Source of the DNA: Ideonella sp. A 288
GTDB lineage: Bacteria > Pseudomonadota > Gammaproteobacteria > Burkholderiales > Burkholderiaceae_C
Assembly: GCF_002198735.1 (NCBI RefSeq)
Contig: NZ_MWLO01000164.1
Location: forward strand, 1 to 42,605
DNA length: 42,605 nucleotides
Reading direction: 5' to 3'
Under the pieces are notes generated by a model, which saw only the letters and a list, made by a program, of their open reading frames with translations, was not told where the DNA came from and did not search any database. The position numbers were made by a program, and so were the translations under genes. How positions within the stretch are numbered: the first letter of the stretch is position 1; the number at the start of each line of letters is the position of its first letter. Below, piece after piece: positions 14,286 through 36,220 of the stretch.

Positions 14286-16331
14286 ATGAACCGTTCAGAC
14301 CCCAGCCCCGACCCGTTCCATTCGGGCGAAAAGGCCATGCAAGCCCGCCTGGGCGTTGAGGAGCGCATGCTCGATGTGGGGCGGCGCGTGATCCGCCCCT
14401 ACCTGCCCGAGCAGCACCGCGAGTTCTACGCCCAGCTGCCCTTCGTGCTGGTGGGCTCGGTCGACGCGCTCGGCCGGCCGTGGGCGTCGGTGCTGGTGGG
14501 CGAGCCCGGCTTCATGCGCTCGCCCGACCCCACGCACCTGCACATCCAGGCGCGGCCGGTGCCCGGTGATCCGCTGGCGCAGGGCCTGGTGCCGGGCGCG
14601 CCGCTGGGCTTCCTGGGCATCGAGTTGCACACGCGGCGGCGCAACCGCATGAACGGGCGTGTCGAAGCCGTGGCCGACGGGCGCTTGACCGTGGCGGTCG
14701 AGCAGACGGTCGGCAACTGCCCGCAGTACATCCAGGGCCGCGAGACCGAGTGGGCGCGCGATGCGGGCGACAACACGCCGCGCGACACGGTCGCGCTGGA
14801 CCACCTGGACGACGCGGCCTTGGCGCTGGTGCGCACGGCTGACACCCTGTTCGTCGCCACGCGCGCACCGGCCGAAGGCGAGCACCCGGGCAGCGCCGAC
14901 GTGTCGCACCGCGGTGGCCGCAGCGGCTTCGTGCGCGTGGAAGACGAGCGCACCCTGCTCGTGCCCGACTTCACCGGCAACTTCCTGTTCATGACGCTGG
15001 GCAACCTGCAGCTCGACCCGCGGGCCGGCGTGATCTTCATCGACTTCAGCACCGGCGACCTGCTCACGCTGACCGGCCGCGCCGAAGTGGTGTGGGACGG
15101 CCCGGAACTCGAGGCCTTCGAAGGTGCCGAGCGCGCCTGGCGCTTTCACATCGAAGCCGGCTGGCGCCTGAGCGCGGCACTGCCGCTGCGCTGGCGCTTT
15201 CGCGACTGGTCGCCCAACTCGCTGATCACCGGCAGCTGGGACGACGCAGCGAGGCGGCTCGAGGTGCAGCGCCTGGCGCAGACCTGGCGGCCCTACCGCG
15301 TGGCCCGCGTGGTCGACGAGAGCAGCGTCATCCGCTCCTTCCACCTCGAGCCGGCCGACGGCTTCGCGCAGCCCGCTTTCGAAGCGGGCCAGTACCTGCC
15401 GATCCGCCTGCACCCGGGCGGTGATGCCGCGCCGCTGCAGCGAACGTACACGCTGTCCAGTGCGCCGGGCGAGGCGGGCCTGCGCATCAGCGTCAAGCGC
15501 GAAGGCGCGGCGTCGACCTTCCTGCACGACCAGGTGAAGGTCGGCGACACGCTCGAGGCGCTCGGGCCGCGCGGCCACTTCACGCTCGACGCCACGCTGC
15601 GCCGCAGCGCGGCGCTGATCGGCGCCGGTGTCGGCATCACGCCGATGGTGTCGTTCGCGCGGCACCTGGTGGCCGAAGGCTTCCGCCTGCGGCGCACGCG
15701 TCCCACGCACCTGATCCAGGTAGCACGCGACGGCCAGGTGCGTGCCTTTGCATCCGAACTCGAGGCGCTGGCCGCCCGGGCCGGCGGCGCCTTGAAGCTG
15801 CACATCGTGCAGGACGACGGCGCACCGGGCACGAGGCCGGGCCCGCTCACCATCGACACGCTCAGGTCCATCCTTCCGTTCGACGACCACGAGTTCTTCC
15901 TCTGCGGCCCGCCCGGCTTCATGCAGGCCTTGTACGACGGCTTGCGCGAGCTCGGCGTGCGCGACCAGCGCATCCAGGCCGAAGCCTTCGGGCCGGCCTC
16001 GCTGAAGCGGCGCCCGGATGACGCCACCGCTGCGCCCGCCCCGCCGCCGCTGCCCCCGGCCACCGAAGCCACGGTGAGCTTCCTGCGCAGCGGCGACACA
16101 GCCGTCTGGACACCTGCGCATGGCAGCCTGCTCGAGTTCGCCGAAGGCAAGGGCCTTTCTCCGCCCTACGCCTGCCGCGCCGGGCATTGCGGTTCGTGCC
16201 TGACGCCGCTGCGCGCCGGCCGCGTGACCTATGCCGAGCCGACGGCCTGGACGCCCGGCGAAGGCGAGGTGCTGCTGTGCTGCGCGCGGCCGGCGGCCGG
16301 TGGCGACGAACGCATCGAACTGGAGCTCTAG
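14286..16331 (+). CDS. PPOX-ferredoxin reductase-2Fe-2S ferredoxin fusion
   Basis: This 681-residue, three-part protein starts with a PPOX-type flavin-binding domain (about 30-310; FVLVGSVDALGRPWASVLVG, DFTGNFLFMTLGN). It is followed by a ferredoxin-reductase-like FAD/NAD(P) module (about 335-580; RTYTLSS near 385, GAGVGITPMVSF, FLCGPPGFMQ). It ends with a plant-type 2Fe-2S domain carrying Cys630, Cys635, Cys638 and Cys666. Electrons can thus pass from NAD(P)H through FAD to 2Fe-2S, with a second flavin site in the same chain. Comparable PPOX-reductase fusions are known in databases, but their substrates are mostly undefined. ATG 14286 lies 37 bp after the GST stop. Confidence 0.88.
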   Translation: MNRSDPSPDPFHSGEKAMQARLGVEERMLDVGRRVIRPYLPEQHREFYAQLPFVLVGSVDALGRPWASVLVGEPGFMRSPDPTHLHIQARPVPGDPLAQGLVPGAPLGFLGIELHTRRRNRMNGRVEAVADGRLTVAVEQTVGNCPQYIQGRETEWARDAGDNTPRDTVALDHLDDAALALVRTADTLFVATRAPAEGEHPGSADVSHRGGRSGFVRVEDERTLLVPDFTGNFLFMTLGNLQLDPRAGVIFIDFSTGDLLTLTGRAEVVWDGPELEAFEGAERAWRFHIEAGWRLSAALPLRWRFRDWSPNSLITGSWDDAARRLEVQRLAQTWRPYRVARVVDESSVIRSFHLEPADGFAQPAFEAGQYLPIRLHPGGDAAPLQRTYTLSSAPGEAGLRISVKREGAASTFLHDQVKVGDTLEALGPRGHFTLDATLRRSAALIGAGVGITPMVSFARHLVAEGFRLRRTRPTHLIQVARDGQVRAFASELEALAARAGGALKLHIVQDDGAPGTRPGPLTIDTLRSILPFDDHEFFLCGPPGFMQALYDGLRELGVRDQRIQAEAFGPASLKRRPDDATAAPAPPPLPPATEATVSFLRSGDTAVWTPAHGSLLEFAEGKGLSPPYACRAGHCGSCLTPLRAGRVTYAEPTAWTPGEGEVLLCCARPAAGGDERIELEL

Positions 16332-16379
16332 CCCAACCCGATCGGAACGCTCAACGGCGCCGCCGGTGCCGGCGCGGGC

Positions 16380-17279
16380 TCAGTTCAGCGATGGATCGGC
16401 CCGCAGTCCTTCCACCACCAGGTCGATGAAGCCCCGCACCCGCTGCGTGGCCCGGCGCCCCCCGTGGTGCACCACATGGATCGGCAGGTCAGCGGTCTCA
16501 TGGGCTTGCAGCACGGGCACCAGCGCGCCGGATTGCAGCTGCGCCGCGACCTGGTAGCTGAGCAGGCGCGCGATGCCCAGGCCTGCGATGGCGGCCGCGA
16601 TGGCCGCCTCGTTGGAGGTGCTGCGCATGCGTGGCTGCACACGCTGCGAGAAGGCTTGCTCGCCGACCCCGAAGTGCCATTCCGGTTGAGCGGTCAGGCC
16701 AGCGGCCGAGATCAGGGCATGGTCGGTCAGCTCCCGCGGATGCGCCGGCAGGCCACGGGCCTTTGCGTATTCGGGCGACGCCACGAGCACACGGCGCACG
16801 CGGCCCACGCGCGCCGCATGCAGCGATGAATCGGGCAGTTCGCCGATGCGCACCGCCACGTCCACGCCTTCTTCCAGCAGGTTCACCACCCGGTCCAGGA
16901 ACAGGCAGTTGGCGTCGAGCTGCGGCCATTGCAGCAGGTAGCGCGCCAGCAGCGGCGCCACGTACAGCTGGCCGAACATCACCGGCGCGGTGATCGTCAG
17001 CGTGCCCTTGGGTGCCTGGTGCTCGCCCATGGCGGCCTGCTCGGCGTCGTGGACCTCGGCCAGGATGCGCCGGCAGTCGTCGGCATAGCGCGCACCGGCC
17101 TCGGTCACGCGCACGATGCGGGTGGTTCGAGTCAGCAGCCGCAGGCCCAGGTGGCTTTCGAGCTCGGCCACGGCGCGCGTCACCACCGGCGGCGACAGGG
17201 CGAGCTTGCGCGCCGCGCTGGCAAAGCCGCCGGTCTCCACCACCGCCACGAAGGTCGTCATCGCCTGCAGCCTGTCCAC
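16380..17279 (-). CDS. LysR-family transcriptional regulator (paralogue)
   Basis: This 299-residue protein has an N-terminal winged helix-turn-helix (GFASAARKLALSPPVVTRAV) and a LysR effector-binding domain (LTITAPVMFGQLYVAPL, EEGVDVAVRIGELPDSS). It is closely related to the regulator at 11865-12767. A GTG at 17279 (VDRLQAMTTF) is the best start because the longer frame adds 23 residues that do not belong to the family. It is convergent with the fusion oxidoreductase gene and divergent from the NTF2-like gene, so it probably controls the 17.5-20.0 kb operon. Confidence 0.9.
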   Translation of the reverse strand: MDRLQAMTTFVAVVETGGFASAARKLALSPPVVTRAVAELESHLGLRLLTRTTRIVRVTEAGARYADDCRRILAEVHDAEQAAMGEHQAPKGTLTITAPVMFGQLYVAPLLARYLLQWPQLDANCLFLDRVVNLLEEGVDVAVRIGELPDSSLHAARVGRVRRVLVASPEYAKARGLPAHPRELTDHALISAAGLTAQPEWHFGVGEQAFSQRVQPRMRSTSNEAAIAAAIAGLGIARLLSYQVAAQLQSGALVPVLQAHETADLPIHVVHHGGRRATQRVRGFIDLVVEGLRADPSLN

Positions 17280-17372
17280 TCGGCACCTCTGCGGTTTGCT
17301 GTCGAAGCCGCCATTCTGGTGCGGGGACTGTTGCGCGACCCACAACACTGTCTTTGCGGCCCCGGTGATTCA

Positions 17373-17385
17373 CACCCGGCGGGTG
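17373..17385. promoter_or_regulatory. palindrome in the divergent LysR/NTF2-like spacer
   Basis: CACCCG-G-CGGGTG is a perfect 6-bp inverted repeat around one base, in the middle of the 197-bp spacer between the divergent LysR gene and the NTF2-like gene. It could be an operator for the LysR protein, but it has no T-N11-A form and there is no second copy. Confidence 0.3.
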
Positions 17386-17476
17386 CCGGGCCACAGTGGC
17401 TTCCTCACGCCGCCCACCGTTGTTGCGCCGATGCTGTTGTGGGCGCGAGTCACCGCATCCGACCTTCTGGAACCCG

Positions 17477-17956
17477 ATGAACCACCCCCAAGAAACCCGC
17501 GCACCCCTGCCGCCCTTCACCCTCGAATCGGCGACGCTGAAAGTCCGCTTGGCCGAAGACGCCTGGAACACCCGCGACCCGCAACGTGTGGCACAGGCCT
17601 ACACCCGCGACAGCGTCTGGCGCAACCGCGCTGAGTTCCCGGTGGGGCGCGAAGCGATCCAGGCCTTCCTGCAGCGCAAGTGGGCCCGCGAGATCGACTA
17701 CCGCCTGATCAAGGAACTGTGGGCCCACGACGGCGCCCGCATCGCCGTGCGCTTTGCCTACGAGTGGCACGACGACGCCGGCCAATGGTTCCGCTCCTAC
17801 GGCAACGAGAACTGGGCCTTCGACGACCACGGCCTGATGCAGCTGCGCTTTGCCAGCATCAACGACAAGCCCATTCCCGCGGCCGAGCGGCTGATGCACT
17901 GGCCGCTGGGCCGGCGCCCCGATGACCACCCGGGCCTGAGTGCCCTGGGGCTGTGA
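17477..17956 (+). CDS. NTF2-like (DUF1348) protein
   Basis: This 159-residue protein belongs to the SnoaL/NTF2-like DUF1348 family. [18 protein letters not shown] followed by [28 protein letters not shown], and [13 protein letters not shown] are characteristic. It forms a cone-like alpha+beta barrel in known structures, but no activity is established. The stop codon overlaps the upstream part of the next gene's leader (GTGAGGCGG), so it is the first gene of an operon with the flavoprotein and the second GST gene. Confidence 0.87.
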
Positions 17957-29640: not shown

Positions 29641-30645
29641 TCACACCCCACCCAGGTACACCCGTGCCGCGTTCAAGGCGTAGGTCGCGGCGAGGCCGAC
29701 ACTGACCCAGCTGACCACGCGAAGGGTGCGCCCCTGCGGCCGCATCACCAGGCCGATGATCACCAGACCCGTCATCACCAACGCCGTGGCCGCGGTGCCC
29801 GCGTGCACCGGTGCGGCGTCGGCGAGCAGGGGGCCGCGCACGTAGAACGCATCGTCCACCGCCAGGATCATGACGTTGAACAGGTTGCTGCCCAGCAGGT
29901 TGCCGATGGCCATGTCCAGCGCCCCGAGCCGCAACGCGCCGAGGGTGACGGCCATCTCGGGCAGGGTGGTCACGATGGCCATCAGCACGGTGCCGACGAA
30001 GCTTCGCGACAGCCCCGCTTCGCTTGCCAGGCCGTCGGCCACCTGGGGCAGCCAGCTGCCCGCCGCCAGCACCACTAGCGCGGCCAGGCCGAACCGGCGC
30101 CACTCGTCCCGCGTCTGACCGGCGGGTGCCGGCGTGCGTGTGGCCGTGCCGGCGGCCATGGCCTGTCGCTCGTGCGCGTGCACCCCTTTCAGCGCCAGCA
30201 GGTACAGCGCCAGCAGCATGGGGCTGTAGACGCCGACGTGCAGCACCGCCGGTGCCCGCGTGCCGGTGACCAGGCTCAGCGCGACGAAGCCCAGCATCAC
30301 CACGCCGAAGCCGGCCGACAACAGGTGCGTGGCGCTGGCCTCGCGGTACATCGGCTGGTGGCGCTGCAAGGCATCGACGACGACGAGGAACAGCAGGTTG
30401 ACGACACAGGCGCCGAGGGCGTTGCCCACGGCCAGGTTGGGCGCGTCGACCATGGCCACCGCACTGATGCCCGAGGCCAGCTCGGGCAGCGAGGTCACCG
30501 TGGCCAGCAGCGCCAGGCCGACCCAGCCGCGTCCCCAGCCGTTGGCCTCGGCCAGCGCATCGGCGCTGCGGCTGAGCACGTAGCCGGCCCGTGCGATCAG
30601 CACGGCGCAGAGGGCGAACTGGACGAGCAGCCAGCCGAGCGTCAT
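29641..30645 (-). CDS. Na+/Ca2+ exchanger-family (CaCA) antiporter
   Basis: This 334-residue membrane protein has about ten helices and the two alpha-repeats of the CaCA family: TVTSLPELASGISAV with APNLAVGNALG, and IVTTLPEMAVTLGAL with DMAIGNLLGSNLFN. The paired Glu residues bind the cation. It should exchange Ca2+ (or Na+/K+) against Na+ or H+ at the inner membrane. Its ATG overlaps the TGA of the P-type ATPase gene (ATGA), so the two cation transporters are made together. Confidence 0.92.
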   Translation of the reverse strand: MTLGWLLVQFALCAVLIARAGYVLSRSADALAEANGWGRGWVGLALLATVTSLPELASGISAVAMVDAPNLAVGNALGACVVNLLFLVVVDALQRHQPMYREASATHLLSAGFGVVMLGFVALSLVTGTRAPAVLHVGVYSPMLLALYLLALKGVHAHERQAMAAGTATRTPAPAGQTRDEWRRFGLAALVVLAAGSWLPQVADGLASEAGLSRSFVGTVLMAIVTTLPEMAVTLGALRLGALDMAIGNLLGSNLFNVMILAVDDAFYVRGPLLADAAPVHAGTAATALVMTGLVIIGLVMRPQGRTLRVVSWVSVGLAATYALNAARVYLGGV

Positions 30646-33479
30646 GGCCGCGGTCGGTGCATCGTGCGCACCCAGAGCTTGCGGACCTCTTCCACCCACA
30701 GCACCAGGCTGGCCAGGCCCAGCAGCGGCAGCAGCGAGGCCAGCGGCAGCGGCACGGTGTGGAACAGCGTGTTCAGGGCGGGCACGTAAAGCACGGCCGC
30801 CTGCAGCGCGATGCTCAGCGACAGCCCGAGCGCCAGCCAGCGGTTTCGCAGCAGTCGCGGGCCCAGCGCCGAGGCGACAGCCGACTGGCAGTTCAGCACG
30901 TTGAACCAGCAGCACATCGCCAGCACGGTGAAGGTCTCGGTGCGCACCAGTTCTTCAGGCACGCCCAGCGACAGCCTCCAGGCGAACCAGCCGAAGCTCA
31001 CCGCGGCGATCGTCGGTGTCATCAGCGCCACGCGCCCCAGCAACTCGCGGCCGAGCAGCGGGTCGTCGCGCGGCACCGGCTGGCGGCGCATCTCGTCGCC
31101 GTCGGGCGGCTCCATCACCAGGTTCACCGTCACCGTGCCTTCGGTGACGATGTTGATCCACAGGATCTGCACCGCGGCCAGCGGCAGCGGATAACCGGCC
31201 AGCAGCGCGGCCAGCAGGATCAGCAACGCGGCCATCGAGGTGGCGAACAGGTACAGGATGACCTTCTTCAGGTTGCCATAGACGATCCGACCTTCCTCCA
31301 CGGCGCCGACGATGGTGGAGAAGTTGTCGTCGGTGATGACGATCTTGGCCGCGCTCTTGGCCACCTCGGTGCCGGTGATGCCCATGGCCACGCCCACGTC
31401 GGCGCGCGCCAGCGCGGGGGCGTCGTTGACGCCATCGCCGGTCATCGCGACCACCTCGCCGCAAGCCTGCAGTGCCTCGACGATGCGCAGCTTCTGCGCC
31501 GGCTGCACGCGGGCGAACACCGCGATGCCGGGCAGCGCGGCACGCAGGTCGGCCTCGCCCATGCGTTCGAGTTCGGGGCCGTCCACGGCGCGGTAGGCGC
31601 CGCCGGGTGAGCCCTCGCGGTAGGCGCCGCCGGGTGAGCCCTCGCGGTAGGCGCCGCCTGGTGAGCCCTCGCGGTAGGCGCCGCCCGGTGAGCCCTCGCG
31701 GTAGGTGCCGCCCGGTGAGCCCTCGCGCTCGCCGTCGCCCGCGATGCCGAGTTCACGGGCGATGGCCAGGCCGGTGAGCTTGTGGTCGCCCGTCACCATG
31801 ATCGGCCGAATGCCGGCGGCCCGGCACTCGGCGACCGAGACCTTGACCTCTTCGCGCGGTGGATCGATCTGGCCAACCAGGCCGAGCAGGCGCGCGCGGC
31901 CGGCCAGCGCGTCGAAGCCGGCCGCCGCGTCGAGGCCGTCGTCGTCCACGGCGGCAAAGGCCAGCACGCGCAGCGCCTGCGTGGCCATGGCCTCCGCGGC
32001 ATCGCGCGCCGCCTGCAGTGTCGTGCCGCCGTCGGCCCTGCACAGCCGCAGCACGGCCTCGGGCGCGCCCTTGATCCACACGCGGCGGGGCGCGTCGGCC
32101 ATGCGGTGGCGCGTGGCCATCAGCTTGGTGTCGGAGTCGAAGGGCAGTTCGGCCTCGCGCGGCGCGGCGTGGCGCAGGGCCTCGATCGCGAGGCCGGCCT
32201 TGCGCGCCAGCACCAGCAGGGCGCCTTCGGTCGGGTCGCCAAGCACCGTCCAGCCGGCGCGGTCTTCCTCGGGCGGCAGCAACTGCGCGTCGTTGCAGAG
32301 TGCGGCGGCCATGCACAGGTCGCGCAGCGTCGGATCGGCAACGTCGGCGGCGGCCCCGCCCTCGTCGAGCGCGCCTTCGGGCACGTAGCCGATGCCGCCG
32401 ACGGCGATCACGCGGCCGCCGGGCAGCCACAGCGCCACGGCCGTCATCTCGTTGCGGGTAAGCGTGCCGGTCTTGTCGCTGCAGATGATGGTGGTCGAGC
32501 CCAGCGTCTCCACCGCCGACAGCCGCCGGATGATCGCGCCGCGCTCGGCCATGCGCTGCATGCCCACGGCCAGCGCGATCGTCATCGCCACCGGCAGGCC
32601 CTCGGGCACCATCGAGACCATCTGGCTGATGGCCACCATCAACACCTCGGCCAGCGGCAGCTCGCGCCACAGGCCCAGCAGCACCACCAGCACGAACAGC
32701 CCCAGCGCCGCCCCCACCAGCGCGCGGCCGAACTGTTCGAGCCGCATCTCCAGCGGGGTCTTCGGCTCCTCGGCGTGTTCGGTGAGGCCGGCGATGCGGC
32801 CGACCTCGGTGTCGACACCGGTGGCGACGACGACGGCGCGCGCCCGCCCGGCGGTGACATGGGTGCCGGAATACACCATGCAGTGGCGGTCGGCCAGCCC
32901 GGTGGCCTCGGACACCGGGGCCACCGACTTCGACACCGGCACCGACTCGCCGGTGAGCGCGGCCTCGGCCACCTGCAGCTGGGCGTCTTCGACCAGCCGC
33001 GCGTCGGCGGCCACCGCATCGCCCGCGGCCAGCAGCACGGTGTCGCCCGGCACCAGATCGCGCGCCTCGACAACCAGTTCGCCACCGTCGCGCAGCACCC
33101 TCACGCGCAGCGCGGACAGCCGCCGCAGCGCCGCCATCGACCGCTCGGCGCGGCCTTCCTGGACGCTGCCGATCAGCGCGTTGACCAGCACCACGGCCAG
33201 GATGACCATCGCATCGCCGCGATGGCCCAGTGCCACGGCCAGCACCGCGGCCACGAACAGGATGTAGATCAGCGGGCTCTTGAACTGGCGCGCAAAGGTG
33301 CGCCACAGGGGCTTGGGCGGCGGCTCGGGCAGCGCATTCGGGCCATGTCGCGCCCGGGCCTGCTGCACGGCATTCGAGTCGAGGCCCTGCCGTGGGTCGA
33401 GCTCGAAGTGGCGCAGCAACTGGTCTACCGGCAGCGCATGCCAGAGGGGGGCGATGTCATCGGTCGTCCGGCCTGCCAT
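30642..33479 (-). CDS. P-type cation-transporting ATPase (P2-type)
   Basis: This 945-residue ATPase has the cation ATPase N-terminal domain, an actuator motif (LTGESVPV), the phosphorylation site SDKTGTLT (Asp335), KGAPEAVL of the nucleotide-binding domain, MVTGDH and the hinge motif MTGDGVNDAPAL, and a C-terminal set of membrane helices. VPEGLPVAMTIALAVG is the conserved M4 sequence of type II Ca2+/Na+-type pumps. A 45-residue insertion of five Arg-Glu-Gly-Ser-Pro-Gly-Gly-(Ala/Thr)-Tyr repeats lies at about 586-630, between MVTGDH and the ELERM region of the P domain. ATG 33479 was chosen because the longer frame adds Arg-rich antisense sequence. Confidence 0.93.
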   Translation of the reverse strand: MAGRTTDDIAPLWHALPVDQLLRHFELDPRQGLDSNAVQQARARHGPNALPEPPPKPLWRTFARQFKSPLIYILFVAAVLAVALGHRGDAMVILAVVLVNALIGSVQEGRAERSMAALRRLSALRVRVLRDGGELVVEARDLVPGDTVLLAAGDAVAADARLVEDAQLQVAEAALTGESVPVSKSVAPVSEATGLADRHCMVYSGTHVTAGRARAVVVATGVDTEVGRIAGLTEHAEEPKTPLEMRLEQFGRALVGAALGLFVLVVLLGLWRELPLAEVLMVAISQMVSMVPEGLPVAMTIALAVGMQRMAERGAIIRRLSAVETLGSTTIICSDKTGTLTRNEMTAVALWLPGGRVIAVGGIGYVPEGALDEGGAAADVADPTLRDLCMAAALCNDAQLLPPEEDRAGWTVLGDPTEGALLVLARKAGLAIEALRHAAPREAELPFDSDTKLMATRHRMADAPRRVWIKGAPEAVLRLCRADGGTTLQAARDAAEAMATQALRVLAFAAVDDDGLDAAAGFDALAGRARLLGLVGQIDPPREEVKVSVAECRAAGIRPIMVTGDHKLTGLAIARELGIAGDGEREGSPGGTYREGSPGGAYREGSPGGAYREGSPGGAYREGSPGGAYRAVDGPELERMGEADLRAALPGIAVFARVQPAQKLRIVEALQACGEVVAMTGDGVNDAPALARADVGVAMGITGTEVAKSAAKIVITDDNFSTIVGAVEEGRIVYGNLKKVILYLFATSMAALLILLAALLAGYPLPLAAVQILWINIVTEGTVTVNLVMEPPDGDEMRRQPVPRDDPLLGRELLGRVALMTPTIAAVSFGWFAWRLSLGVPEELVRTETFTVLAMCCWFNVLNCQSAVASALGPRLLRNRWLALGLSLSIALQAAVLYVPALNTLFHTVPLPLASLLPLLGLASLVLWVEEVRKLWVRTMHRPRP
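31591..31725. repeat. 27-bp x 5 in-frame minisatellite
   Basis: Five tandem 27-bp units start at 31591, 31618, 31645, 31672 and 31699 inside the P-type ATPase gene. The units differ at only a few positions, mostly synonymous. Because 27 is a multiple of three, unit gain or loss keeps the frame. There are no spacers, so it is not a CRISPR. Confidence 0.95.
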
Positions 33480-33538: not shown

Positions 33539-34414
33539 TCACGGCCCGCGCACGACCAGCGTGTCGCAGTCGAGTGCGTGCAGCAGGCTCTCTGCCGTGC
33601 TGCCGAGCAGCGCCCTCGCCACCCCGCTGCGACCCTGCGATCCCAGGACCACCAGATCGACATCGGCACTGGCCACGTAATCGGACAGCAGGGCCTCCGG
33701 ACTGCCGCTCTCCAGCATCTGATGCACTGCCGCTGCGACGGCTGCGGGCAGGGCCGCCGCGGCCAGGTGCGAGGCGCAATGCTCCCTCATCGCGGTCTGC
33801 CAGGAGGCGATGGCGACCGGCCCGCTGCTCGTCGCCGAGCCGGGTGGGGTGCAGGCGTGGAAGAGCGTCAGCCGGGCGTCCGCGAACCAGTGCGCGGCCA
33901 GTCGCAGGGCGTGCATCGCCGGGTCGGAGAAGTCGGTGGCCACCACGACATGCTGGTAGGCGCCTCGGGCGCGGCGCCGGACGTTCAGCACAGGCACGCG
34001 CGAGTGCCGCACCAACGCATCCGCCGTGCTGCCCAGCTGGAGGCGATCCCTGCGCGCGTCCTTGGAGATGCCCAGCACGACGAGCCCCGTGCCGCCGTCG
34101 CTCGCGTCCAGCAGCACCGCGTCGGCCGTCGTGCCGATCACGACCTTGGACGTCGCCTCGACCCCTTCCGCGGCCAGGTCGGCGCGCAGTGCCCGCTCGA
34201 GCGTTTGTGCCCAGGATTCAGGGCGGTGCCACGAGGGCACGCCGCTCGCGAGCTGGTCGTGCCGGGCGACTTCGACGGCGTGCACGACATGGGCGACGGT
34301 CAGCTCGCAGTGCCACGACCGCGCCAGCAGCGCCGCGCGGGCCAGTGCGCGGTCGCACCGTGCGCTCAGGTCGGTGGCCAGGAAGATGCGGGTGGGCAGC
34401 GGGGTGTCGGTCAT
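33539..34414 (-). CDS. tandem universal stress protein
   Basis: This 291-residue protein has two UspA domains. The first ends in GISKDARRDRLQLGSTADAL with HSRVPVLNV, and the second in GSQGRSGVARALLGSTAES. Both carry the G-2x-G-9x-G(S/T)-like ATP-binding motif in recognisable form. USPs support survival under oxygen limitation, starvation and membrane stress. ATG 34414 is preceded by AGGAG. It is upstream of the ATPase, antiporter, CBS and ADH genes, and its own upstream region holds an FNR-type box and an NhaR-like element, so it is probably the first gene of this operon. Confidence 0.92.
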   Translation of the reverse strand: MTDTPLPTRIFLATDLSARCDRALARAALLARSWHCELTVAHVVHAVEVARHDQLASGVPSWHRPESWAQTLERALRADLAAEGVEATSKVVIGTTADAVLLDASDGGTGLVVLGISKDARRDRLQLGSTADALVRHSRVPVLNVRRRARGAYQHVVVATDFSDPAMHALRLAAHWFADARLTLFHACTPPGSATSSGPVAIASWQTAMREHCASHLAAAALPAAVAAAVHQMLESGSPEALLSDYVASADVDLVVLGSQGRSGVARALLGSTAESLLHALDCDTLVVRGP

Positions 34415-34580: not shown

Positions 34581-34594
34581 TTGAGTTGAATCAA
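34581..34594. promoter_or_regulatory. FNR/Anr-type box upstream of usp
   Basis: TTGAG-TTGA-ATCAA matches the FNR consensus TTGAT-N4-ATCAA in 9 of 10 conserved positions. It lies 167 bp before the universal stress protein start on the minus strand. An oxygen-responsive start of the downstream operon fits the gene content. Confidence 0.6.
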
Positions 34595-34664
34595 CGTCGG
34601 CGGCGGGCCGGTTCGGGCGGTGCGGCGCACGCTGGGCGCTGTCCTCTGGCGCAGGCACGATCCG

Positions 34665-34700
34665 CAGATTTATCCGATGCGTTGGCATCGAATATTCGAT
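34665..34700. promoter_or_regulatory. NhaR-like operator, copy 1
   Basis: This is the 15-bp block CAGATTTATCCGATG, 7 variable bases, then the perfect palindrome ATCGAATATTCGAT. The same layout and the identical 15-bp block recur at 35767-35802. It lies downstream of the nhaR-like gene and upstream of usp, so it is a candidate binding site for the NhaR-like protein. The assignment is inference from duplication and position. Confidence 0.55.
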
Positions 34701-34821
34701 CGATCGATTCACGAAGCGAGGCCTCGGCGGGATGCCCTCCAGGCGTGGTCCACGGCCGCCTGTCGGGATCGGCCGGTGCCTGTCGACGGCGGGTGGTGCC
34801 GTCGCGGCACCCTCGGGCAGC

Positions 34822-35757
34822 CTACTGGCGCTGGCCGGCGCGGGACGGCTTGGTGCGCACCGCCGGCTGGAACAGCTCGCCTCGGGCCGCCCGGGTGATG
34901 GCCAGCACGCAAGGGTGGGTGATGCGCCGCTCGACGGAGATGGCGTAGAAGTGCTCTTCCACCGCGTCGATCGTGCCCACGTGCTGCACCTGGTGCCGCG
35001 ACTCGATCTCGTCGACCAGCACCTCCGGCCCCAGCAGGTAGCCCACGCCCCGGCGGCCGAACTCCTGCGCCAGCGCGCTGTCGTCGAACTCGGCGACGAT
35101 GCGCGGATGCAGTCCCTGCGACTTGAACCAGGTGCGCAGGCGCTGCCCGACGGCGGAATCCTCGCCGGGCATCAGCAGCGGCGCGCCGTTCAGGCAATCG
35201 GGGAAGGGCTTGCGAGAGCGCGCCTTCAAGGCACGGGCCGCGAAGACGCCGATGCGCGATCCCCCGAGGCGATGGCTGAAGGCCTTGACGCTGACCGCGG
35301 GCGGCAAGGGGGCATCGGCGATCACCAGGTCGAGCGTGTGCACCGCCAGTTCGGACAGCAGGCGATCGAGCCGCCACTCGCGGCAGACGATGCGCACCGG
35401 CTGCTCGACCGCCAGTGCGGGTTCCACGAGGCGGTAGGCGATGGACTTGGGCACCGCGTCCGCCACACCGATGCGGAAGTCCAGGGTCCGTCCGGCCTGC
35501 GCCTTCTCGCGCACCGCCGCCTCCAGCTCGGAGCCGAGCGAGAAGATCTCCTGTGCGTAGGTCAGGGCCAGCCGGCCGGTCTCGGTCAACTCGAGGCGAC
35601 GGCCGACCTTCTCGAACAGCGCGCCGCCGAGCCGGTCGGCCAGCAACTGGATCTGCCCGCTGATGGTCTGCGGCGTCAGGTGCAACTGTCGGCTGGCCGC
35701 GGCCACGCTGCCGGTCTCTGCCACCTGAAGGAAGTAGTGAAGGTGCTTGTAGTTCAT
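34822..35757 (-). CDS. nhaR: NhaR-type LysR regulator
   Basis: This 311-residue protein starts MNYKHLHYFLQVAETGSVAA and continues with SRQLHLTPQTISGQIQLL, matching the NhaR N-terminal helix-turn-helix almost word for word (GRRLELTETGR follows). The rest is a LysR effector-binding domain ending in a basic tail. NhaR proteins respond to Na+ and control nhaA and stress genes in enterobacteria. In this cluster likely targets are the stress/cation-transport operon to its left and the hibernation-factor-like gene to its right. A copy of the 36-bp element begins 10 bp before its start, suggesting autoregulation. Confidence 0.85.
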   Translation of the reverse strand: MNYKHLHYFLQVAETGSVAAASRQLHLTPQTISGQIQLLADRLGGALFEKVGRRLELTETGRLALTYAQEIFSLGSELEAAVREKAQAGRTLDFRIGVADAVPKSIAYRLVEPALAVEQPVRIVCREWRLDRLLSELAVHTLDLVIADAPLPPAVSVKAFSHRLGGSRIGVFAARALKARSRKPFPDCLNGAPLLMPGEDSAVGQRLRTWFKSQGLHPRIVAEFDDSALAQEFGRRGVGYLLGPEVLVDEIESRHQVQHVGTIDAVEEHFYAISVERRITHPCVLAITRAARGELFQPAVRTKPSRAGQRQ

Positions 35758-35766
35758 GACAGGCCT

Positions 35767-35802
35767 CAGATTTATCCGATGGAACAGAATCGATTAATCG
35801 AG
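35767..35802. promoter_or_regulatory. NhaR-like operator, copy 2
   Basis: CAGATTTATCCGATG, 7 bases, then ATCGATTAATCGAG (palindromic core TCGATTAATCGA). It lies in the 115-bp divergent spacer between the nhaR-like gene and the hibernation-factor-like gene and could serve both. The 15-bp block is identical to copy 1. Confidence 0.6.
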
Positions 35803-35872
35803 TTTACGGGCCATTGTTCGGGCCCTACATTGCGTCCGAGCGATCGAGGTGGGGGGCAGAAAAGGACGCAAG

Positions 35873-36220
35873 ATGGACATCCGGTTCCAGGCTTCGACGA
35901 CCCGCACGGGTGTCGATCTCGCAGCGCATGCGCGCAGGTGTCTCCAGGTCGGCATGCAGCATCGCAGCGACCGGGTGGAGCACATCGAGGTCAGGTTCGG
36001 CGACGCGCGAGAACGCCGCCCCCACCAGGACAGCTACTGCATCGTGCGCCTGAAGCTCCACGGGGCGTCGGCGGCCACCGTGGTGCAGGTGGGCGCGGAT
36101 GCCTACAGCGCGATCGATCGCGCGGCCGATCGCGCCTGCCGCCTGGCCGAGGAGCAACTGCGCCTGGCCGGCCTCCCGAAGGCCTGGCCGGCCGCGCCGG
36201 CCATCGCGTTCGTGGCATGA
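35873..36220 (+). CDS. ribosome hibernation factor (HPF/RaiA)-like protein
   Basis: This 115-residue protein begins MDIRFQASTTRTGVDLAAHA and continues with the HPF/RaiA (sigma-54 modulation) fold: RVEHIEVRFGDARERR, CIVRLKLHGASAATV, and YSAIDRAADRACRLAEEQL. The last two motifs are hallmarks of the beta-alpha-beta-beta-beta-alpha fold. Such proteins stop translation by binding the 30S decoding region. AAAGGA precedes the ATG at about 7 nt. It is divergent from nhaR and next to other stress genes. Its sequence is diverged from the main HPF, so it may be a specialised paralogue. Confidence 0.8.
   Translation: MDIRFQASTTRTGVDLAAHARRCLQVGMQHRSDRVEHIEVRFGDARERRPHQDSYCIVRLKLHGASAATVVQVGADAYSAIDRAADRACRLAEEQLRLAGLPKAWPAAPAIAFVA

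Follow-up and report, generated by a model that had tools for sequence, protein, structure and literature searches.

The nhaR locus of Ideonella sp. A 288 raises the question of why the same two-part sequence element stands at both ends of a regulator gene, and which protein and which genes it serves. The window (the whole stretch of 42,605 nucleotides that was analysed, contig NZ_MWLO01000164.1) carries the element once beside the nhaR start and once upstream of a universal stress protein gene. The element is very probably a 37-bp two-part LysR-type operator bound by the NhaR protein encoded between the copies. We place at roughly 0.85 the probability that both copies are NhaR operators, with the mechanism proposed below at copy A and with copy B as the counterpart of a usp-associated site in relatives. 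This reading is built on sequence, genome rarity, recurrence and geometry, from which we infer binding, signal and the direction of regulation.

Two copies of one element

The sequence-only reading had described an element of identical spacing at the nhaR start and in the usp control region, and a pattern scan of the window confirmed it: CAGATTTATCCGATG-N7-ATCGAWTAWTCGA occurs at 34665-34699 and 35767-35801 (+ strand), with 0 mismatches in each. The element had been called 36 bp long and palindromic. It does have two parts, but the pattern as stated spans 35 bp, and the sequences of relatives extended it to a 37-bp operator. In copies A and B alike, the 12 bp of the left half form a perfect palindrome; the right half, ATCGGATAAATCTG, has the same letters in both copies and is non-palindromic.

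35766..35802, minus strand: operator copy A, 37 bp, CTCGATTAATCGATTCTGTTCCATCGGATAAATCTGA; exact match, profile E 0.011 (copy A is in the profile)
35766..35780, minus strand: copy A, right half, ATCGGATAAATCTGA; presumed to be the regulatory half, of high affinity
35790..35801, minus strand: copy A, left half, TCGATTAATCGA; presumed to be the activation half
34664..34700, minus strand: operator copy B, 37 bp, ATCGAATATTCGATGCCAACGCATCGGATAAATCTGC; exact match, profile E 0.004 (copy B is in the profile), 21.4 bits with a 38-site matrix trained without it
34822..35757, minus strand: nhaR, LysR-type regulator, 311 aa; NCBIfam NF008284, 240.9 bits, cut-off 219
33539..34414, minus strand: uspA, two-domain universal stress protein, 291 aa; Pfam PF00582, 149.6 bits

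The copies lie in direct orientation 1.1 kb apart and are identical at 27 of 37 positions; apart from copy B, the best match to copy A among the window's 37-mers reaches 20 of 37. The gap between copy A and the nhaR ATG (35757, minus strand) is 8 bp, and that between copy B and the downstream uspA ATG (34414, minus strand) is 249 bp.

The stated pattern did not occur in 100 shuffles. Relaxed to three mismatches or fewer, it still gave two matches only in the whole genome (6,980,783 bases in 164 contigs), and a reversed control pattern gave none at the same tolerance. A 30-site sequence profile, in which both copies are training sites, returned the same two places and nothing else at E values up to 10. 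The many randomly placed copies that the sequence-only reading had named as evidence against an operator were thus not seen (2 matches at three mismatches or fewer in 6.98 Mb). The further copies that it had expected before other cation-transport or stress genes were not found either, and no wider regulon was found in the Ideonella genome with the 30-site profile at E up to 10. Partial matches to a single half occur elsewhere in the genome: those at L063 (round the C63 match), L041, L042 and L044 have no full site above 8 bits, and the L043 region has a full site of 8.5 bits.

Two direct copies 1.1 kb apart might also be left by a mobile or dispersed repeat (REP-like, an integration site or a transposon end) that landed twice. 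This explanation was rejected because the genome searches gave two copies only, and we regard it as extremely improbable: both copies have counterparts in the relative G012, and in relatives the element is joined to a promoter at a fixed offset.

Recurrence beside nhaR in relatives

The product of the window's nhaR passes the curated NCBIfam NhaR model (NF008284). Inspection of the DNA upstream of nhaR homologues in relatives revealed a site of 37 bp whose two halves are fixed. Both beta- and gammaproteobacteria have it beside nhaR. Among 30 aligned sites, right-half positions T24, C25, G26 and C34 and left-half positions C3 and G4 are invariant, and T7 is conserved in at least 90%.

The recurrence was scored at named nhaR loci, of which the top 80 of a longer list were taken. 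A first matrix, built from 10 sites that included copy A, gave at least 20 bits within 250 bp upstream at 51 of these best 80 loci and less at the other 29; L127 is probably the same sequence as one of the training genomes of this matrix. Permuted-column controls gave 0 of 1600, with a maximum of 15.6. A 38-site matrix found sites of at least 18 bits within 300 bp upstream at 74 of the best 80 loci, a count that is only partly independent because 29 of the 74 sites had trained the matrix (45 lay outside the training set). The six loci without a site at 18 bits by this matrix are L069, L070, L091, L096, L101 and L136. Most sites (67/74) lie within 60 bp of the start of the nhaR match, the other seven at 101-224 bp. 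The best site upstream of nhaR in the relative G019 is weak, at 14.8 bits.

A second survey covered 60 genomes, Ideonella's own and those of 59 relatives. The profile gave 17 hits in 15 genomes, of which all but two (in G038 and G050) lie within 2 kb of a nhaR homologue. By comparison with the aligned training rows, 12 of the 17 are training sites. Three of the five others stand beside nhaR (in G021, in G037 and the second G055 site), and two do not. Where NhaR identity to the window's protein was 45% or more (14 genomes), 12 had a profile hit near nhaR, the exceptions being G048 and G025, although most of the sites behind this figure had trained the profile; among genomes with a weaker NhaR homologue the count was 1 of 21 (G037).

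The Ideonella genome encodes two further NhaR-like proteins, at C141 and C156, and such a paralogue, or some other LysR protein, might bind the element instead. We consider this improbable. The 14 and 20 kb regions round the C141 and C156 paralogues contain no operator above 8 bits, and in relatives the site recurs beside the nhaR subgroup found in the window. The earlier proposal of a regulon operator stands in part: the element is operator-like and tied to NhaR by the NF008284 match, by its recurrence and by a half resembling the E. coli NhaR motif, but no further copies were found.

Operators flank nhaR on both sides in two other lineages (L142:6707-6743 and L055:9995-10031). The second operator points outward from the 3' end of nhaR and precedes the gene for a 65-aa protein in L142 and for a 321-aa protein in L055. 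Just downstream of nhaR, G021 (L053) has short repeats in tandem (CATTCGGCTAAAT) that resemble the NhaR half site. In the window, a hairpin 3' of nhaR is not strong (z-score -1.94; 7 of 200 shuffles fold equally well).

The predicted promoter beside the site

35803..35831, plus strand: predicted sigma70-like promoter of the divergent gene, TTTACG-N17-TACATT; same place as the relatives' promoters
35873..36220, plus strand: gene of 115 aa, HPF/S30AE-like, which copy A is predicted to control; ATG set by comparison with relatives

The site abuts a sigma70-like promoter that points away from nhaR, and at copy A the left half adjoins the -35 element directly. Since the promoter played no part in finding the sites, its position in relatives is an independent test. 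At the -35 place (offsets 1-2), TT is present in 74 of 74 sites, and in 46 of 46 of the non-redundant set. TAnnnT stands at the -10 place (offset 24) in every site but that of L133 (73/74; non-redundant 45/46), against three sites at most at any other offset from 7 to 60. Outside the 38-site training set, the -10 is present in 44 of 45 sites. The -35 is weaker, with a mean of 3.3 of the 6 TTGACA letters in the non-redundant set, compared with up to 2.6 at the other listed offsets.

With the transcription start taken as 7 bases after the -10, which in the window falls near 35838, the right half is by arithmetic centred at about -65 and the left half at about -40. In LysR-type operators the regulatory half sits near -65. 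A regulatory half near -65 and an activation half at -35 are arranged in this way, relative to the predicted promoters, at copy A and at 73 of 74 relatives' sites. Copy B has no such promoter on its conserved promoter side.

The promoter abutting copy A points away from nhaR, and copy A therefore probably drives the divergent gene at 35873. This HPF-like gene, which did not figure in the sequence-only reading, becomes the main predicted target.

Genes faced by the promoter

The 35873 protein is 53-54% identical to the proteins encoded divergently from nhaR in L066 and L068, and 28-33% identical to the counterparts in L077, L081, L084, L087, L113, L133 and L142 (weakest E 0.004). Its match to the L081 protein has 33% identity in BLASTP, with E 7e-12. 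The L081 protein passes Pfam PF02482, and this S30AE family is reached by the L081 and L113 proteins, homologues with 33% and 30% identity, at 49.1 bits against a threshold of 23.7. The 35873 protein itself matched no Pfam family, PF02482 included, and no Pfam threshold was reached by its 54% homologue in L068 or its G012 counterpart. S30AE membership of the window protein was rejected because it reaches no Pfam threshold, and we keep "HPF-like" as a name. The G012 HPF-like gene, beside the counterpart of copy A, has a GTG start at L045:5244. In G012, two extra usp genes, absent from this place in the window, lie between the HPF-like and TerB-like genes (L045:5579-7412).

The first gene faced by the promoter was picked by a simple rule for 80 sites (74 upstream of nhaR and six others, copy A included), and the family names rest on one tested member each, or three for the HPF-like family. 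A small lipoprotein-like protein is faced in 33 of the 80, all of them Pseudomonas loci; the one member tested had no Pfam hit. The HPF-like gene follows with 12 sites, then Rrf2-like (9), TerC (8), Bax1-I (6), usp (2) and M48 protease (2) genes. Eight faced genes are singletons, one of them a known mis-pick.

Copy B and the stress protein genes

30642..33479, minus strand: P-type cation ATPase, start inferred; Pfam E1-E2_ATPase and Cation_ATPase_C
34581..34594, unstranded: FNR-like box at a distance of 69 bp from copy B; differs from TTGAT-N4-ATCAA by 1 mismatch

The P-type cation ATPase is possibly co-transcribed with uspA; its best NCBIfam model is a PMR1-type Ca ATPase, with a score under the cut-off of that model. 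The ATPase gene contains an in-frame tandem repeat at 31589-31741 (period 27, 5.7 copies, encoding REGSPGGAY repeats), and no repeat of this type is present at the corresponding place in the G019 ATPase translation.

Two relatives, G012 (NhaR 87% identical to that of the window) and G019 (79%), have counterparts of copy B between a second usp gene, uspB, and uspA/ATPase or ATPase. There the promoter side of the site faces uspB, and the uspB promoter has its -10 at the expected offset and a poor -35. In the window both uspB and its promoter are absent, and copy B is therefore without a promoter on the usual side. Judging from the sole genome match to uspB at E 1e-10, which is 39% identical, the usp gene facing the copy B counterpart is lost from the Ideonella genome. 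Direct control of usp by copy B as such, as the sequence-only reading implied, thus finds no footing: the promoter side of the site faces away from the window's usp gene and the promoter is missing. The pairing of operator and uspB is not general either, given two exceptions: the uspB of L067 (76%) is not preceded by an operator (best -25 bits), and the gene faced by the second L066 site encodes another protein, which looks secreted and has no Pfam hit.

Copy B could accordingly be a mere relic, if a deletion took the usp gene and its promoter and the operator has not yet decayed, in which case only copy A works. We rate this somewhat below an even chance. G012 and G019 keep uspB on the promoter side of the site, where the window has neither that gene nor its promoter, and nothing closer than the 39% match is found elsewhere in the genome. 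Against decay, copy B retains all seven checked conserved positions. The distance to the FNR-like box is also kept.

The FNR box consensus is TTGAT-N4-ATCAA, and the window holds no FNR-like box at one mismatch or fewer other than the one near copy B. Boxes of this kind lie upstream of the uspA/ATPase side in G012 (0 mismatches) and G019 (2 mismatches), each 70 bp from the operator. The sequence between operator and box is clearly alike in the window and G012, whereas in both comparisons with G019 it is no more alike than shuffles. The persistence of the distance (69, 70 and 70 bp) in spite of this argues against a relic, but weakly, because only three loci are available. As a control, we searched 1.5 kb upstream of five ATPase relatives from genomes whose best NhaR homologue is at most 41% identical, and found neither the operator nor an FNR-like box (best 3 mismatches) in any of them (5/5). 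We favour joint use of operator and FNR-like box, as suggested by this arrangement, while three loci cannot prove a constraint on spacing. If copy B is functional as an NhaR operator, it may still modulate the uspA/ATPase operon. The G019 locus (L046:5005-8878 and 14468-17852) also has neighbours that, read from their translations, are antiporter-subunit-, sodium/calcium exchanger- and potassium efflux-like.

Comparison with known NhaR and LysR-type systems

E. coli NhaR belongs to the same regulator family as the window's NhaR, with which it shares 38% identity. At E. coli nhaA, a 37-bp stretch is followed by TTTTAA-17-TAAAAT, the same layout as at copy A, as noticed by eye. One of the seven conserved positions is missing from the nhaA site, in a left half that is degenerate. 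The 38-site matrix gives the nhaA site 17.6 bits in the promoter-facing orientation and 10.1 bits in the opposite one; the corresponding scores with the 10-site matrix are 5.6 and 9.7 bits. Older footprint papers reportedly mapped a sodium-sensitive G at -60 of E. coli nhaA, which would fall in the right half. The predicted targets in the window differ from nhaA, being a hibernation-like gene and possibly usp and the P-type ATPase.

The right half of both copies agrees with the E. coli NhaR motif TCgaAAAAatCtA at 10 of 13 letters, counted by eye (PMC6307784, in the part available), and the same portion of that article describes even the E. coli motif as not well characterised. LysR-type operators consist of a regulatory and an activation half, termed RBS and ABS (PMC11739112, in the part available). 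The likeness to such operators lies in two half sites about two helix turns apart, near -65 and at -35. The window copies differ from most relatives' sites, however, in the T-N11-A motif of LysR-type operators. Among 38 nhaR-upstream sites, copy A included, T stands at position 24 in all 38 and A at position 36 in 27; both window copies have G at 36 where A is expected, and T-N11-A is broken in each.

For E. coli, binding of NhaR to probes of rmf and rsd has been reported, together with a rise in RMF and 100S ribosomes when nhaR is deleted (PMC10003395, from the portion accessible). A link between NhaR and hibernation is therefore already in print for E. coli, as far as that portion goes, and the window would resemble it in tying an NhaR protein to ribosome hibernation. 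In contrast to the rise of RMF on nhaR deletion reported there (PMC10003395, same portion), the geometry in the window predicts activation, and the window gene is S30AE-like, not rmf. A second article, by its title on E. coli Rsd and RMF, contains NhaR once (PMC6904343). Judged by titles, the open literature yielded no report of NhaR control of usp, hibernation or TerC-type targets outside E. coli, nor was the phrase "NhaR regulon" found in it. The two copies are very probably a real NhaR operator pair; the kind is ordinary, and what the pair adds are new predicted targets and an unusual second copy.

Proposed mechanism and significance

In the proposed mechanism, a tetramer of NhaR would anchor on the right half ATCGGATAAATCTG and, through the left half TCGAWTAWTCGA, contact RNA polymerase. 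That left half would, at copy A, touch the -35 box of the promoter leaving nhaR. Given its signal, which in E. coli is Na+ and high pH, NhaR would activate the HPF-like gene at 35873, and NhaR bound to copy A, 8 bp before the nhaR start codon, may limit its own synthesis. Copy B would be the counterpart of the site in the divergent usp control region of the two relatives and, lying near an FNR-like box at a distance like theirs, may still modulate uspA and the cation ATPase.

At just under even odds, a broader arrangement is conceivable, in which NhaR, the 37-bp operator and the abutting promoter form a fixed input module, shared by beta- and gammaproteobacteria, whose output gene is exchanged between lineages (a hibernation-like factor, a Bax1-I membrane protein, an Rrf2 regulator, TerC, a lipoprotein, an M48 protease or usp). 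In the window's group, the second copy would then join NhaR, at constant spacing, with an FNR-like site, so that oxygen-dependent control of a stress protein and a cation pump would be linked to a sodium/pH signal. The locus would offer a case in which regulator and operator stay while the faced gene changes. For NhaR proteins outside the enterics, the analysis provides a sharply defined operator and promoter layout, with direct targets predicted in many named genomes, several of them testable at once, and it would connect a ribosome hibernation-like protein with a regulator presumed to respond to sodium and pH.
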